Part shown: in pieces, positions 14,755 to 19,518 of the stretch
Position numbering within the stretch: position 1 is the stretch's first letter
How the letters are laid out: every line of letters starts with the position of its first letter
Assembly: GCF_000504285.1 (NCBI RefSeq)
Contig: NZ_KI632511.1
Location: forward strand, 7,794,154 to 7,858,153
Reading direction: 5' to 3'
Length of the DNA stretch: 64,000 nt
Origin: Actinospica robiniae DSM 44927
Lineage (GTDB): Bacteria > Actinomycetota > Actinomycetes > Streptomycetales > Catenulisporaceae
Made by a program: the position numbers and the translations under genes
Notes under the pieces: generated by a model
Seen by the model: only the letters and a program-made list of their open reading frames with translations
Told to the model about the DNA's origin: nothing
Databases searched by the model: none

Positions 14755-14771
14755 GCCTGCCACCTGCGTCA

Positions 14772-14798
14772 TGTCACAAACCGGAGCCCTGCCTCGTC
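14772..14798 (+). promoter_or_regulatory. ECF41-type promoter of the sigma factor gene
   Basis: TGTCACA at 14772-14778 followed by exactly 16 bases and CGTC at 14795-14798, the published ECF41 promoter pattern (TGTCACA-N16-CGTC). It implies that the sigma factor transcribes its own gene and excludes the ATG at 14771 as translational start. Confidence 0.8.
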
Positions 14799-14860: not shown

Positions 14861-15808
14861 GTGAACGAGGCGGAGGAGTTCGACGAGCTGCGGCCGCTGC
14901 TGTTCTCGATCGCCTACCGGCTGCTCGGCAGCGTGACCGAAGCTGAGGACGCCGTGCAGGAGACGTGGCTGCGCTGGCAGACCTCGTCGACCCGGCCGGC
15001 GTCGGCGAAGTCGTTCCTGTCGGCGGTGGTAACCAGGATCTCGATCGACGTCCTGCGCTCGGGCCGGGTACGTCGGGAGGCGTACGTCGGGCCGTGGTTC
15101 CCCGAACCGCTGCTGACCGACCCGTATGAGGATCCTGAGCGTGCGGCCGAACTCGCCGACTCGCTCTCGATGGCGGCGCTGCTGCTGTTGGAACGGCTCT
15201 CCCCGGCCGAACGCGCCGTGTTCGTGCTGCGCGAGGTCTTCGGGTTCAGCTTCCGGGAGATCGCCTCGGCCGTAGGCCGATCCGAAGCGGCTTGCCGGCA
15301 GCTCGCGACGCAGGCCCGCCGGCACATGGACGACGGCCGCCCGCGCTTCGCAGCCGACCGCCGCGAGCGGGCCGAGCTGGCCGAGCGCTTCTTCGAGGCG
15401 TTCCGCGCGGGCGACGTCGACGGCCTGACCGAGCTGCTGGCCGGGGACGTCCAGATGGTCAGCGACAACGGCGGCAAGGCGCCGCGCTTCGGCCGCGGCG
15501 TGTTCGGCGCCGGGAACGTGGCCCGGGTGCTGACCTCGCTCATCCTGCCGTTCGTCCGGATCGGCGGGGTGGTGCAACCGTGCGAGGTGAACGGCCAGCC
15601 CGGCGCCGTCTTCCGCGACCGGGACGGCAAGGTCATCAACACCTGGACGCTCGACGTGCTGGACGGGCGGATCCAGGCGATCCGCACGGTGATCAACCCC
15701 GACAAGCTCGCCCACATGGGCCCGGTGGCCGACGCCTGGAGCGTGATCCGGCAGACGAAGCAGGCCCGCAGGTCGGCGGGCCCTGAGACGGGGATCACAG
15801 TCGGCTGA
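14861..15808 (+). CDS. ECF41-group RNA polymerase sigma factor (SigJ-like) with SnoaL C-domain
   Basis: 315 residues from GTG 14861, preceded by GGGGAG. Sigma region 2 (EFDELRPLLFSIAYRLLGS, then AVQETWLRW) and region 4 (LSPAERAVFVLREVFGFSFR) are followed by a C-terminal SnoaL/NTF2-like domain (about 190-315), which replaces an anti-sigma factor in this group. Hallmark pieces are present in slightly varied form: WFPEP in the linker (usual WLPEP) and DNGGK in the C domain (usual DGGGK/R). Autoregulated through the promoter at 14772; the same motif precedes the next gene. Confidence 0.93.
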   Translation: MNEAEEFDELRPLLFSIAYRLLGSVTEAEDAVQETWLRWQTSSTRPASAKSFLSAVVTRISIDVLRSGRVRREAYVGPWFPEPLLTDPYEDPERAAELADSLSMAALLLLERLSPAERAVFVLREVFGFSFREIASAVGRSEAACRQLATQARRHMDDGRPRFAADRRERAELAERFFEAFRAGDVDGLTELLAGDVQMVSDNGGKAPRFGRGVFGAGNVARVLTSLILPFVRIGGVVQPCEVNGQPGAVFRDRDGKVINTWTLDVLDGRIQAIRTVINPDKLAHMGPVADAWSVIRQTKQARRSAGPETGITVG

Positions 15809-15836
15809 TCTCACAATCGGACCCCCCTGTCTCGTC
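15809..15836 (+). promoter_or_regulatory. ECF41-type promoter of the SnoaL-LUD gene
   Basis: TCTCACA at 15809-15815, 17 bases, then CGTC at 15833-15836. It differs from the ECF41 consensus by one base in the -35 element and one base in spacing, and the downstream bases also resemble the upstream promoter (GATCGACACAG compared with GACCGACACAG). Starts immediately after the sigma factor stop codon. Confidence 0.78.
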
Positions 15837-15876: not shown

Positions 15877-16977
15877 ATGAACGACTTTCAGGCGATCGCG
15901 GACCGGGTCGAGATCGAGGCGCTGCGCAGCGAGTTCACCGACGCCGCGATGATGCGCGACCGGGCCCGTCTCGCGGCCCTGTTCACCTCGGACGGCGTGC
16001 TGCGGATGCCCGACGTCCCGGTCGAGTTCACCGGGCCCGAGGAGATCCGCGCCGGGGGAGAACGGCTGCAGGCGCAGTGGGACTTCTTCATCCAGAACAC
16101 GCACCAGGGCGCGGTGGAGATCGACGGCGACACCGCCACCGGCCGGGCCTTCATCCAGGAGATCGCGCGCCTGCGCAACGGCTTCGAAGGGCTCAACTAC
16201 GCGATCTACCACGACCGGTACCGGCGTACCGCGGACGGCTGGAAGTTCGCCGAGCGCGTCTACGAGATCCGCTACCTCGACATCACCCCGCTCGGCGGTT
16301 CGGCGCCGGGAGCGGCGGGAGCGCCGGGCGACGTCGAGGCCCTGGTCGCGGCCGCCGACGTGGCCGGGACGAAGTTCACCGAGCCGGCCTCCGCGGACCG
16401 GCTGGAGCGGACGGCCGCCGCGTTGACGGCGAAGGGCTTCGCCGTCGAGATCCTCGGCGACGCCGCGGCCGCCCGCGCCCGTGTGAAGGAGCTGATCCCG
16501 CTCGGCGCGAGCGTGTTCACCGCCGCGAGCGAGACGCTGCGGCTCTCCGGGCTCGAGGAGGACATCAACGCGGGCGGCGACTACCAGTCCGTCAAATCCC
16601 GCGCGATGACGATGGACCGGGAAACCGAGGGCGATGAACTCCGGCGGCTCGTGGCGACCCCCGACTTCGCGGTCGGCAGCGTCACCGCCGTCACCGAGGC
16701 CGGCGCGCTCGTGATCGCCTCGGCCAGCGGCAGCCAGCTGCCCGGCGCCGTCGGCGGAGCCGCGTGCGCGATCTGGGTCGTCGGGGCGCAGAAGGTGGTG
16801 GCGGACCTCGACGAAGCCATGCGCCGCGTCGAGCAGCACGCCCTCCCGCTGGAGGACGTCCGAGCCCGGGAGGTGTACGGCGTGCCCAGCGCGGTCAACC
16901 AGTTGCTGATCCTCAACGCGCCGACCCGGATGGGCCGGGGCGTCGTGGTGCTGCTTCGCGAGGCCATCGGGTTCTGA
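15877..16977 (+). CDS. SnoaL/NTF2-like domain fused to a LUD (LutC/YkgG-like) domain
   Basis: 366 residues, ATG with GGAGTGAGG ahead. Residues 1 to about 145 form a SnoaL-like NTF2 fold (RLAALFTSDGVLRMPDVPV, YRRTADGWKFAERVYEIRYL). Residues about 155-366 match the LUD domain of lactate-utilisation protein LutC/YkgG (GASVFTAASETLRLSGLEED, DFAVGSVTAVTEAGALVIA, VVGAQKVV). Probable target of the adjacent ECF41 sigma factor. ECF41 partners are usually carboxymuconolactone decarboxylases, oxidoreductases or epimerases, so this partner is unusual. Catalytic activity unknown. Confidence 0.85.
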   Translation: MNDFQAIADRVEIEALRSEFTDAAMMRDRARLAALFTSDGVLRMPDVPVEFTGPEEIRAGGERLQAQWDFFIQNTHQGAVEIDGDTATGRAFIQEIARLRNGFEGLNYAIYHDRYRRTADGWKFAERVYEIRYLDITPLGGSAPGAAGAPGDVEALVAAADVAGTKFTEPASADRLERTAAALTAKGFAVEILGDAAAARARVKELIPLGASVFTAASETLRLSGLEEDINAGGDYQSVKSRAMTMDRETEGDELRRLVATPDFAVGSVTAVTEAGALVIASASGSQLPGAVGGAACAIWVVGAQKVVADLDEAMRRVEQHALPLEDVRAREVYGVPSAVNQLLILNAPTRMGRGVVVLLREAIGF

Positions 16978-17270
16978 CGGCCAGGACGGACACCATGCGA
17001 AAGCAGCGCCGGCCTGCGATCGCCACGAGGTACAAGGTGTCGAGAATTTTTTGAAATCTCCCCTCCACGGTCGGCCTGAAACGGCGTCGTGCGCGGCCCT
17101 GACGGGGTCGCGCAGGCGCCGCGACGGGGGTTCGCAAGCTCATGGCCAACCCCCTCCGGGCAGGCGCCCACCGGCCCTCTCGCGCCTTCGGCATATCGGC
17201 TCTGACCTGGTCTTTTCTTTGTTTTCGGCTAGGATCGAACCAGCCTGCTGATGCCAACGGAGGGGATCTC
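16978..17270 (+). promoter_or_regulatory. Intergenic region with possible terminator and promoter of the GyrB-like gene
   Basis: After the SnoaL-LUD stop there is an AT-rich imperfect hairpin around GAATTTTTTGAAAT (17042-17057) and a 7-bp inverted repeat GGGGGTT (17126-17132) with AACCCCC (17148-17154). A TAGGAT -10 hexamer at 17230-17235 lies 36 bases before the next ATG, with a T-rich tract just upstream. The ribosome site GGAGGGG is at 17259-17265. Confidence 0.4.
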
Positions 17271-18443
17271 ATGAGCCTGAAGCCCGCCCGATACGACGCC
17301 AGTCACATCCAAGTTTCGGAAGGGCTGGAAGCCGTCCGGAAGCGCCCCGGCATGTATGTCGGAACGACCGGCGAGCGCGGCGTGCGGCACATGGTGTTCG
17401 ACATCGCGGAGCGGGCCTTAGGTGAGATCCTGGACGGCCGCGCGAGCCGGCTCCAGGTCGCACTCCTCGCAGATGGCGGCGTACGCGTCGCAGACGATGC
17501 CGACGGCGTCGCTTTCGGGGAGCCCGATGGTGTCGGCCTCGACAGGCTGCTGACGATGTTGCATTGCGGAACGCGCTCGGGACGACGCATGGTGGCCTCC
17601 TTCGGCGGTGGCCTCGCCGTCGTCAACGCCCTGTCGAGCCGGCTGGTGGCCGAGGTGTGGAGTGGGGGCGTCCGTGAGACGCGTGTGTACAGCCGCGGGA
17701 TCGCGGTGATCCCGCCCGCTGAACAGGCTGAGTCTTCGGTACACGCTGACGCGGGGTCGGCAGTCGCGGACGGAACCGCCATCACCTTCTGGCCGGACTC
17801 CGAGATCTTCGAAGGCGCAGAGCTCTCGTTCGACGCCCTCGCAGACCGCTTCAGGGAATTGGTCTTCCTCAACAGCGGCCTGGACATCTCGATCACCGAC
17901 GAGCGCTCACCCGAGCCCCGGTCGCTCCACTTCCCTCCCTCGGACGGCGTGCGTGACATGGTCGCGTACCTCGACGGGCCGGCGGCGGCGCCGGTCCATT
18001 CCGACGTCATCGCCTTCGCAAAGGACGATCCGCGGATGGAGGGGACGATGGAGGTCGCCTTCCGCTGGCGCGACTCGAGCGAAAAGCAGCTTCAATGCTT
18101 CGCCAACGGCATGCCCACGCCCTACGGCGGCGTTCATGCCCTGGGCTTTCACGACGGGCTGAAGGTCGCGCTCAACGCCTATGCGCGCGAGCAGCACCTG
18201 CTGACGGCTGCAGACCCCGATCTCGGCGTCGGCCGGATCGGAAAGGGCCTGACGGCGGTCGTGTCGGTGAAGTTGGACTTCCCCAGGTTCGAGGGCTGCA
18301 CGAGGGGCGAGCTGGGCAACGCGGAGGTACGAGCCTGTGTCCGCGAGGCGGTGATCGCGCATCTCGGCACCTGGCTGGCGGAACACCCGCGCGAGGCCGC
18401 CGCGATCCTCGAGCACCTCATCCGCCGGGCGCCCCGGGACTGA
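17271..18443 (+). CDS. Truncated GyrB/ParE-like GHKL ATPase-transducer protein with degenerate ATP site
   Basis: 390 residues; ATG with GGAGGGG six bases upstream. Aligns with the first 390 or so residues of GyrB: the opening (SEGLEAVRKRPGMYVG) and the transducer domain (FWPDSEIFEGAELSFD, LNSGLDISI, GLTAVVSVKLDFPRFEG), stopping where the 43-kDa fragment of GyrB ends. TOPRIM and C-terminal domains are absent, so it cannot cut DNA. ATP-site residues differ: the catalytic Glu equivalent is D44, the Mg-binding Asn equivalent is R48, DDGRGIP is DDADGVA (75-81), and the GGLHGVG lid is altered to ASFGGGLA. Could be a decoy or regulator of gyrase; function unknown. Confidence 0.85.
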   Translation: MSLKPARYDASHIQVSEGLEAVRKRPGMYVGTTGERGVRHMVFDIAERALGEILDGRASRLQVALLADGGVRVADDADGVAFGEPDGVGLDRLLTMLHCGTRSGRRMVASFGGGLAVVNALSSRLVAEVWSGGVRETRVYSRGIAVIPPAEQAESSVHADAGSAVADGTAITFWPDSEIFEGAELSFDALADRFRELVFLNSGLDISITDERSPEPRSLHFPPSDGVRDMVAYLDGPAAAPVHSDVIAFAKDDPRMEGTMEVAFRWRDSSEKQLQCFANGMPTPYGGVHALGFHDGLKVALNAYAREQHLLTAADPDLGVGRIGKGLTAVVSVKLDFPRFEGCTRGELGNAEVRACVREAVIAHLGTWLAEHPREAAAILEHLIRRAPRD

Positions 18444-18597
18444 CCCGCGTCCCCCGTTCGGCCCATCTGCGCCGACCTGAGCCTGAGCGCGACATCCGTC
18501 ACCGAGATCCTGTGCTGACCCCTGCGATGATCGGCCGCCGGGTTTGCGGCGAAAATCAGTTGCCTGGTTTGTGACCTGGTCGGATGCTGTTGCGGTG

Positions 18598-19518
18598 GTG
18601 AATCTCGACGACGCGGCGCGTGCATGGCGCGAGGACGGCTTCGTGATCCTGCCGGGCTTCATCCCCGAAGACGAGCTGAAACCGGCTCTGGCCGGGCTCG
18701 AGTCGATGTTTCCTTCTGCCGATGGCTTCCACGACGGATCCGACCCTCGTCGCGACCGCTTCACGGGAGACGAGTTCGCCGGGATCGACAGCTTCCCGTT
18801 CGCGAGCGCGGAGGTCGGCCTTCTCGCGGTGCACCCGCGTCTCGTGGAGCTGGCGCAGAGTCTGCTGGCCGAGCAAGACCTGCGGATCTACAGCGCCGAG
18901 GCGTGGGCGAAATACACCGGGGCAGCCGACTACGACCAGAATCTGCACCGCGATTACCTCAACCACACCATCCTGGTGCCCAGCGACGACCCGCGCTGCC
19001 GGCAGTTGGAGATGTTCGTCTACCTCACCGACGTCCCCGAGGAGCTCGGGCCGCCGCACATGCTTTCCCGCGCTTACACCGGCGACCTGCCGGCCAAGCC
19101 CAACTGGTATCCGCGCGCGGACGTCGTGGACAGCGATGCGGGATACCTCGCCACGGGCGGCAGGCCGGACCTCTACGACGCGGAGACCTCCGGAGCCGGG
19201 CCCGCCGGAACCGTCATCGCCTTCGAAACAGGCACCTTCCATCGCGGCACCCAGCTGACTGCACCGCGCGGAGTTCGCTACAGCATGCAGGTGTGCTACC
19301 GGCCCACCGCAGTCCAATGGGGCGACCGGCTCGCCTGGGCCACACACTCCTTCGAACCCGCGTGGAGCCGGTTCGTCGAGCGCGCCACGCCGGGCCAACT
19401 GCACCTGTTCGGCTTCCCGGCGCCTGGTCACCCGTTCTGGACGCCGCAGACGCTGGCAGGCATGGCACAGCGCTACCCAGGGCTCGACCTCACGCCGTGG
19501 AGCCTGGTCGCCGGCTGA
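18598..19518 (+). CDS. Phytanoyl-CoA dioxygenase (PhyH) family Fe(II)/2-oxoglutarate enzyme
   Basis: About 306 residues from GTG 18598 (in-frame GTGs at 18595 and 18571 are alternatives; none has a good ribosome site). Double-stranded beta-helix oxygenase: iron ligands H117 and D119 in NLHRDYLNHT and the distal His in GTFHRGT, with the 2-oxoglutarate-binding Arg probably in RGVRYSMQV. Substrate unknown; PhyH relatives hydroxylate lipids, ectoine or secondary metabolites. Stands alone, 155 bases after the GyrB-like gene, at the edge of the accessory island. Confidence 0.85.
   Translation: MNLDDAARAWREDGFVILPGFIPEDELKPALAGLESMFPSADGFHDGSDPRRDRFTGDEFAGIDSFPFASAEVGLLAVHPRLVELAQSLLAEQDLRIYSAEAWAKYTGAADYDQNLHRDYLNHTILVPSDDPRCRQLEMFVYLTDVPEELGPPHMLSRAYTGDLPAKPNWYPRADVVDSDAGYLATGGRPDLYDAETSGAGPAGTVIAFETGTFHRGTQLTAPRGVRYSMQVCYRPTAVQWGDRLAWATHSFEPAWSRFVERATPGQLHLFGFPAPGHPFWTPQTLAGMAQRYPGLDLTPWSLVAG

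Follow-up and report, generated by a model that had tools for sequence, protein, structure and literature searches.

A SnoaL-LUD fusion gene as a probable target of an ECF41 sigma factor in Actinospica robiniae

We analyzed a 64,000-nucleotide stretch of the Actinospica robiniae DSM 44927 genome (contig NZ_KI632511.1, positions 7,794,154 to 7,858,153 of the forward strand; hereafter the window, with positions counted from its first letter) in which a gene for an extracytoplasmic function (ECF) sigma factor of group ECF41 is directly followed, on the same strand (+), by a gene whose product joins a SnoaL domain to a LUD domain. We consider it probable, at about 0.68, that the two constitute a self-contained ECF41 circuit with the fusion gene under the control of an autoregulated sigma factor. 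The sigma factor would transcribe its own gene as well as, from a separate promoter, the fusion gene, and its activity is presumably governed by the SnoaL-like domain at its C-terminus, as reported for other ECF41 members. The fusion would be one of several interchangeable effector cassettes that can occupy the target slot of ECF41 switches. In most actinobacteria that carry it, this cassette is found in divergent orientation beside a single ECF41 clade that has a promoter type of its own; here it stands behind another clade, with the promoter type of that clade.

The sigma gene, the fusion gene and their promoters

The sigma gene (14861-15808, +) has a GTG start and encodes 315 aa with a sigma2 domain, a WFPEP linker, a sigma4 domain and a SnoaL-like C-terminus carrying NPDKL. 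Its product passes the NCBIfam cut-offs for both SigX4 (361.6 bits, cut-off 323.25) and SigJ (PRK09636; 324.8 bits, cut-off 271), which bears out the assignment to ECF41 made in an earlier reading of the sequence alone. The motifs YVGPWFPEP, a WLPEP-type linker, and NPDKL in the C-terminal extension were read in an alignment of sigma factors (A2), and both types are named in PMC3426412 and PMC7730460. That the protein ends in a SnoaL domain (approximately residues 166-290; 15356-15730, +) also holds, although the Pfam SnoaL_2 match is below its cut-off (20.4 versus 27; residues 204-260 of the longer open reading frame, ORF): the structure model has strands and helices in this region and matches NTF2-like folds. 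In a Foldseek search against the PDB, the top hit for the model was Mycobacterium tuberculosis SigJ (5xe7; E 8.3e-16, 293 columns, 35% identity), a likeness that agrees with the NCBIfam result; the superposition, however, gave a template modeling (TM) score of 0.35 and a root-mean-square deviation (rmsd) of 14.9, and the model therefore does not match the domain arrangement of SigJ. The mechanically called ORF starts at position 14771, within the sigma gene's own -35 element, since the promoter element TGTCACA fills 14772-14778. Only from residue 35 of this longer frame does the family model match, and the gene therefore likely starts at GTG 14861.

The fusion gene (15877-16977, +) is an open ORF of 366 codons (model confidence, as predicted local distance difference test or pLDDT, 77.7). 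Both of its domains, as the earlier reading had them, lie well above the Pfam cut-offs. SnoaL_4 (PF13577) covers residues 6-127 (15892-16257, +; E 1e-16, 61.5 bits, cut-off 24) and LUD_dom (PF02589) covers residues 176-329 (E 9e-17, 61.8 bits, cut-off 22.6), the latter reaching only profile positions 1-150 of 189; on conservation over 86 LUDs of the same type, the LUD domain as a whole extends over residues 176-366 (16402-16974, +) and is not of the LutC type. Between the two lies a variable linker (approximately residues 143-165; 16303-16371, +), visible as gappy columns in an alignment of 31 family members (A1) and as pLDDT below 50 at residues 133-164. Full-length relatives occur across many actinobacteria, mostly beside a SigJ-like sigma gene, and the ORF is therefore no chance product.

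Each gene is preceded by a predicted ECF41 promoter. That of the sigma gene, TGTCACA-N16-CGTC (14772-14798, +), was found by motif scan and scores 33.2 bits with a matrix built from the window sigma's clade versus -4.8 with the matrix of the divergent type described below. That of the fusion gene, TCTCACA-N17-CGTC (15809-15836, +), begins directly after the sigma stop codon and differs from the ECF41 consensus (TGTCACA-16+/-1-CGTC) by one mismatch, with a spacer of 17. It scores 25.3 bits with the window-clade matrix and 7.9 with the divergent-clade matrix when one spacer base is omitted, while none of 300 random 100-base stretches, scored alike, exceeded 9.7. Together with the conserved neighborhood described below, this makes it very probable that the fusion is an ECF41 target, as the sequence-only reading had proposed. 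In the whole 9.9 Mb genome, TSTCACA-N14-17-CTCGTC has four exact matches, two of them at this locus.

The two window promoters also resemble one another. Their alignment score is 48, compared with a 99th percentile of 30 and a maximum of 78 over 3000 window positions (the maximum may be a self-overlap), and both sites end in the same tail, GGGAyCGACACAG. A similar tail follows the promoter upstream of a DoxX_2 gene elsewhere in the genome (scores 37 and 32), and a loose version is found in one of 33 orthologue promoters. It is possible, from these similarities, that the fusion promoter arose as a copy of the sigma gene's own promoter.

Linkage of the fusion and its LUD half to ECF41 genes

A protein search of genome contigs returned 126 relatives, and the best 80 of these 126 loci were retained; with loci from the genome search added and eight duplicates removed, 56 distinct fused-protein loci were obtained. 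In 48 of the 56 (46 divergent and 2 co-directional), the 600 bp upstream of the fusion gene contain a SigJ-like sigma gene. A loose promoter motif (TSACA-N14-17-YGTC) is present upstream in 54 of the 56 loci versus 380 of 7860 random stretches; a stricter pattern (YGTC followed by G or T) overlooks the window's own site, which the looser form catches. Thus, the association between fusion and sigma factor is far above chance, with the qualification that these counts, like those of the order sample and the Fisher test below, ignore kinship between genomes. Widespread occurrence of the fusion without an ECF41 gene, which would have spoken against the sequence-only reading, was looked for in this way and is not what the loci contain.

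The linkage is not confined to the fused form. Relatives consisting of the LUD domain only adjoin the same divergent sigma clade in 21 of 25 cases, and the SnoaL half of the target is therefore dispensable for the pairing. In an even sample of 293 genomes across the order, the fusion or either half is matched in 54, and 135 have the divergent sigma clade, with sigma positions taken among those listed for the best candidates scored per genome. When only genes of at least approximately 60% identity are considered, divergent orientation to that clade is seen for 13 of 18 fusion genes and for 14 of 18 LUD-only genes (two rows of genome G218 were merged, a 95-residue fragment in G279 was omitted and the sigma position in G421 is a placeholder). 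Of the 34 genomes that have a fusion or a close LUD-only gene, 33 contain the divergent sigma clade, versus 102 of the 259 others (Fisher p 1.5e-11). Standalone SnoaL_4 genes in the same sample are divergent to this clade in 4 of 15 cases.

A maximum-likelihood tree built from 95 LUD domains unites 86, whether fused, split or alone, on one branch, with support (93/97) just under the tool's support star. No ECF41-type sigma gene was found near the nine more distant LUDs outside this branch within the stretch examined, which was short for some of them. The tree requires the label of the fused state to change at least four times, so the SnoaL half was gained or lost repeatedly. Within the family to which the window organism belongs, matches occur in eight other genomes, every one of them LUD-only, and five genomes have none. 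The LUD-only pairing and the pattern on the tree together indicate that the core pairing is ECF41 with LUD and that SnoaL is optional. Two Ktedonobacter genomes have a LUD gene close behind a SnoaL_4 gene on the same strand (L069:6033-6719 and L071:5926-6717); no ECF41-type sigma gene was found in the fetched stretch of either. Given these pairs and the standalone SnoaL_4 and LUD genes beside the sigma factor, both halves are found separately with the sigma factor or with each other.

Two sigma clades and an exchangeable target slot

A quick sigma tree (59 rows, with single support values from the Shimodaira-Hasegawa-like approximate likelihood ratio test, SH-aLRT) was built after excluding five loci and then removing 23 divergent sigmas by hand from 82 rows. 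The 27 divergent sigmas form one clade (SH-aLRT 99), and the window sigma groups with 21 relatives (69-77% identity) in another (SH-aLRT 99). The two clades differ in their promoters: the divergent type reads CCTCACATTCCG...GTTGTCGTA (73 sites) and the window-clade type TGTCACAG...CTCGTC (33 sites). The sites were chosen by pattern and scored by leaving each one out of its matrix, under which the types separate by sigma clade, with means of 41.2 bits on their own matrix versus 0.4 on the other for divergent sites and 36.2 versus -7.9 for window-clade sites.

The gene divergent to the first clade varies considerably. We surveyed 39 further loci plus 13 earlier ones, took the nearer ORF where two were present, and set aside 12 of these 52 loci that had no clear divergent ORF close by, which left 40 named partners (that of locus L186 added manually). 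The 39 further loci had been selected for having no listed SnoaL_4 or LUD match beside the sigma gene, so the tally does not give the frequency of SnoaL_4 or LUD in the slot. By Pfam, the 40 partners comprise 7 WrbA-like proteins, 7 carboxymuconolactone decarboxylases (CMD), 5 YceI, 5 SnoaL_3 and 2 FMN_red-SnoaL_3 fusions, and 14 have no match; the WrbA-like partner of L194, the only one scanned with NCBIfam, scores above the WrbA equivalog cut-off. Three of the 293 genomes have the FMN_red-SnoaL_3 fusion (L237:1125-2297, L242:327-1463 and L252), and by coordinates it is divergent to the same sigma clade in all three. SnoaL has therefore been joined to two unrelated partner domains, LUD and FMN_red, in the same slot.

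The 14 partners lacking a Pfam match (L208, L209, L213, L214, L216, L221, L224, L228, L229, L231, L233, L234, L243 and L244), grouped by reading their sequences, appear to form one family, whose members are small and very hydrophobic proteins.

Around the window clade the neighbors are the classical ECF41 ones. Among 70 ORFs at 42 sigma genes, chosen on length and codon bias from 163 ORFs of 45 loci (some may be non-genes), and among the top 25 of 65 families, the commonest were Epimerase/NAD-binding (19 ORFs match Epimerase), CMD (10) and zinc dehydrogenase (8). None of the ORFs around the 45 window-clade sigma genes resembles the SnoaL or the LUD half of the fusion (phmmer, E 1e-3). The A. 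robiniae genome itself still carries, at L002, a LUD-only gene that lies in divergent orientation to a sigma gene of the other clade and is preceded by a promoter of the divergent type. The nearest parallel to the window comes from L072: a sigma factor that groups loosely with the window clade is followed there by SnoaL_4 alone. At this locus (L072:2368-3984, from a metagenome-assembled genome), an ECF41-type sigma and SnoaL_4 share one 539-codon open frame, which may be a direct fusion of sigma and target or an assembly error.

What emerges from these comparisons of sequence is an ECF41 target slot with exchangeable contents (WrbA-like, CMD, YceI, SnoaL_3, the hydrophobic protein, LUD, SnoaL-LUD and FMN_red-SnoaL_3). 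Since the window sigma belongs to the other clade and the fusion promoter matches that clade, the window locus looks like a swap, in which the fusion would have moved behind another ECF41 clade and carries the promoter type of its new sigma factor. This suggests that ECF41 switches may exchange the gene they control yet retain their promoter code. Two distinguishable promoter types and a gene that has apparently switched between them would make a testable case of regulatory rewiring.

Several observations weigh against the proposed circuit and swap. The spacer of the fusion promoter is one base over the modal 16, and the third exact genome match lies upstream of the DoxX_2 gene; a reversed control pattern yields two matches, so the far genomic sites may be chance. 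The fusion behind the window sigma clade is a single case. Eight of the 56 fusion loci have no sigma gene within 600 bp upstream; four such cases were followed genome-wide (G302, G260, G384 and G218), and in each of these genomes the same sigma clade is present at another place. Four divergent-clade sigmas examined with NCBIfam (L004, L038, L002 and L062) all pass the SigJ cut-off, but all miss that of SigX4, and the sigma of L018, one of the co-directional cases, is under both cut-offs (212.5 and 196.4 bits). Finally, the divergent sigma is present in 102 of 259 genomes that have neither the fusion nor a close LUD-only gene and is therefore independent of this particular target.

Relation to described ECF41 systems

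The ECF41 circuits described by Wecke et al., 2012 (PMC3426412), including Bacillus licheniformis Ecf41/ydfG and Rhodobacter sphaeroides RSP_0606, share with the window the C-terminal domain fused to the sigma factor, a local target and a TGTCACA/CGTC promoter before both sigma and target, and they come in several gene orientations. The targets given there are CMD, oxidoreductases and epimerases, with four cupin neighbors mentioned, whereas the window target is a SnoaL-LUD protein; LUD, DUF162 and SnoaL are not mentioned in the main text of that paper (term search). In the fusion itself we found only SnoaL-type, DUF4440 and LUD matches and none to the CMD, oxidoreductase or epimerase class, so that the sequence-only reading rightly placed the target outside the usual enzymes. 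SnoaL-LUD beside ECF41 is thus a variant of known ECF41 circuits that extends the target types beyond the 2012 list. The pairing was not found in our literature searches, which included the available text of PMC9205884 and PMC11256431; an earlier listing in the 2021 ECF re-classification is possible.

On how the C-terminal extension acts, the sources disagree: a 2022 review calls it inhibitory, whereas according to PMC7730460 SigJ loses its activity when the domain is deleted entirely. The signal is described as "some unknown signal" (PMC3426412) or as "likely small molecules" (2022 review).

What the fusion protein may do

The SnoaL-LUD product is most likely a cytoplasmic handler of small molecules, which would remove or convert whatever activates the sigma factor. 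We hold this detoxification or conversion role with less confidence than the regulatory part of the circuit, and base it on the identities of the partner proteins, which suggest small molecules that are redox-active or aromatic. Among the partner families, WrbA is an oxidoreductase of quinones, YceI is a binder of isoprenoids, and polyketides are the substrates of SnoaL. Such alternative effectors beside one sigma clade (WrbA-like flavoproteins, CMD, YceI, SnoaL and LUD) narrow the candidate signal chemistry.

The SnoaL half has a LinA-type NTF2 fold. Structure alignment (VIA-align) with the gamma-hexachlorocyclohexane dehydrochlorinase LinA (3a76_A), among its closest folds, gave Z 20.3 and an rmsd of 2.6 over 141 residues. 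H76, D22 and M25 are invariant in the 31 sequences of A1. The catalytic pair of LinA is His73-Asp25; its histidine aligns with H76 but its aspartate with M25, and with methionine in that position the His-Asp pair is incomplete. LinA-type dehalogenation was therefore set aside as an activity for this half, although the fold fits.

Alternative explanations

The sequence-only reading had supposed that, because sigma factor and target share a fold, their two SnoaL domains may bind the same molecule in a possible signal-sensing loop; the target would then sense or buffer the signal of the sigma factor. Both domains do have NTF2-like folds, and SnoaL partners recur beside the divergent clade: in addition to SnoaL_4-LUD there are the SnoaL_3 proteins (5 of 40), the FMN_red-SnoaL_3 fusions (2 of 40) and SnoaL_4 alone (4 of 15). 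Against a common ligand, the domains belong to different Pfam families, with an hhalign probability of 2.9% between SnoaL_4 and SnoaL_2, and NTF2 folds are very common. Nothing in the sigma factor evidently corresponds to H76 and D22, which are conserved in the target, and its own invariant residues (NG.PG and NP.KL in A2) differ. The LUD-only relatives mostly keep the same sigma factor without any SnoaL half, and the 45 relatives of the window sigma have no ORF resembling either half of the fusion. We consider the shared-ligand loop unlikely. The broader idea of feedback through the shared fold fares unevenly: the common ligand is unsupported, and FMN_red-SnoaL_3, another SnoaL fusion that is independent of the first and adjoins the divergent clade, speaks in its favor. 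We keep a feedback role in view because the recurrence of SnoaL partners, fused or alone, is not explained by the exchangeable slot itself. A speculative extension, to which we give slightly lower odds, combines the two themes: effector genes could move between sigma clades by gaining the promoter of the new sigma factor, and the SnoaL domain of the target could signal back to that of the sigma factor, either by NTF2-NTF2 pairing or by way of a ligand common to both that resembles a quinone or a polyketide. If the target SnoaL did talk back in this way, the fusion would be an enzyme with its own off-switch.

Alternatively, the target could be an accessory regulator that binds the sigma factor, closing a feedback loop by protein-protein contact. 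The precedent is SigG1-RsfG of Streptomyces tsukubaensis (PMC7730460), in which a SnoaL-bearing sigma factor also has a conserved neighbor gene, and the conserved neighborhood in our data is in line with such a role. That system differs in that SigG1 belongs to ECF56 and RsfG, which binds SigG1, is described as an anti-sigma factor that has no Pfam domains, whereas the window has an ECF41 factor and a two-domain neighbor. The partners of a single sigma clade have unrelated folds, a poor fit with a conserved binding interface, and ECF41 members are described in PMC3426412 as having no obvious anti-sigma factors. An accessory regulator thus seems improbable.

A third alternative holds that the LUD half is a LutC-type subunit for lactate utilization that was moved under stress control. 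LutC proteins share the LUD domain, as the Pfam match attests, and the fusion has an ETG motif and a GxPSA stretch in common with the genome's LutC-like copies, with a weak profile match (hhalign 10.4%). The proposed active site of LutC is a conserved C-terminal histidine (H201 in 2G40; PMC3924224), whereas none of the last 37 columns in the 86 LUDs of the fusion's type is mostly histidine (the highest count is 15 of 86, at position 351; position 347 has 5 of 86). The GVHGPR stretch of the genome's LutC-like copies is likewise not conserved in these LUDs, a comparison made by eye as the hhalign alignment ended before that stretch. The fusion further differs from LutC in being joined to SnoaL_4 and in having as neighbors the sigma gene and a GyrB-like gene rather than lutAB; no LutA- or LutB-type match was found among the five window proteins scanned. 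The genome carries five further LUD genes, three of them LutC-like with the GVHGPR motif. Because the C-terminal LutC motif is missing and separate LutC-like genes exist, we rejected lactate utilization as a leading idea, and a LutC-type subunit under stress control appears even less likely than an accessory regulator. The LUD domain of the fusion would instead mark a LUD subfamily probably unrelated to lactate.

That sigma and fusion genes are mere neighbors with no regulation between them is the least probable explanation, given the conserved linkage and the promoters, a chance adjacency roughly expected at about 1e-4 per gene, and the concentration of half of the genome-wide promoter matches at this one locus.

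Other genes in the window and genome

Downstream of the fusion, the ORF at 17142-18443 (+), with a likely start near 17265, encodes a GyrB-like protein of approximately 390-430 aa that covers the N-terminal 374 of 639 GyrB model positions. It corresponds to the ATPase/transducer half alone and would be a stand-alone half-gyrase gene. A gene for a PhyH-family dioxygenase (18544-19518, +) adjoins it. Elsewhere in the genome, at L247 (G000:C1:5918398-5918424), the exact ECF41-type promoter upstream of the DoxX_2 gene is followed, after that gene, by another gene of the sigma-70 family.
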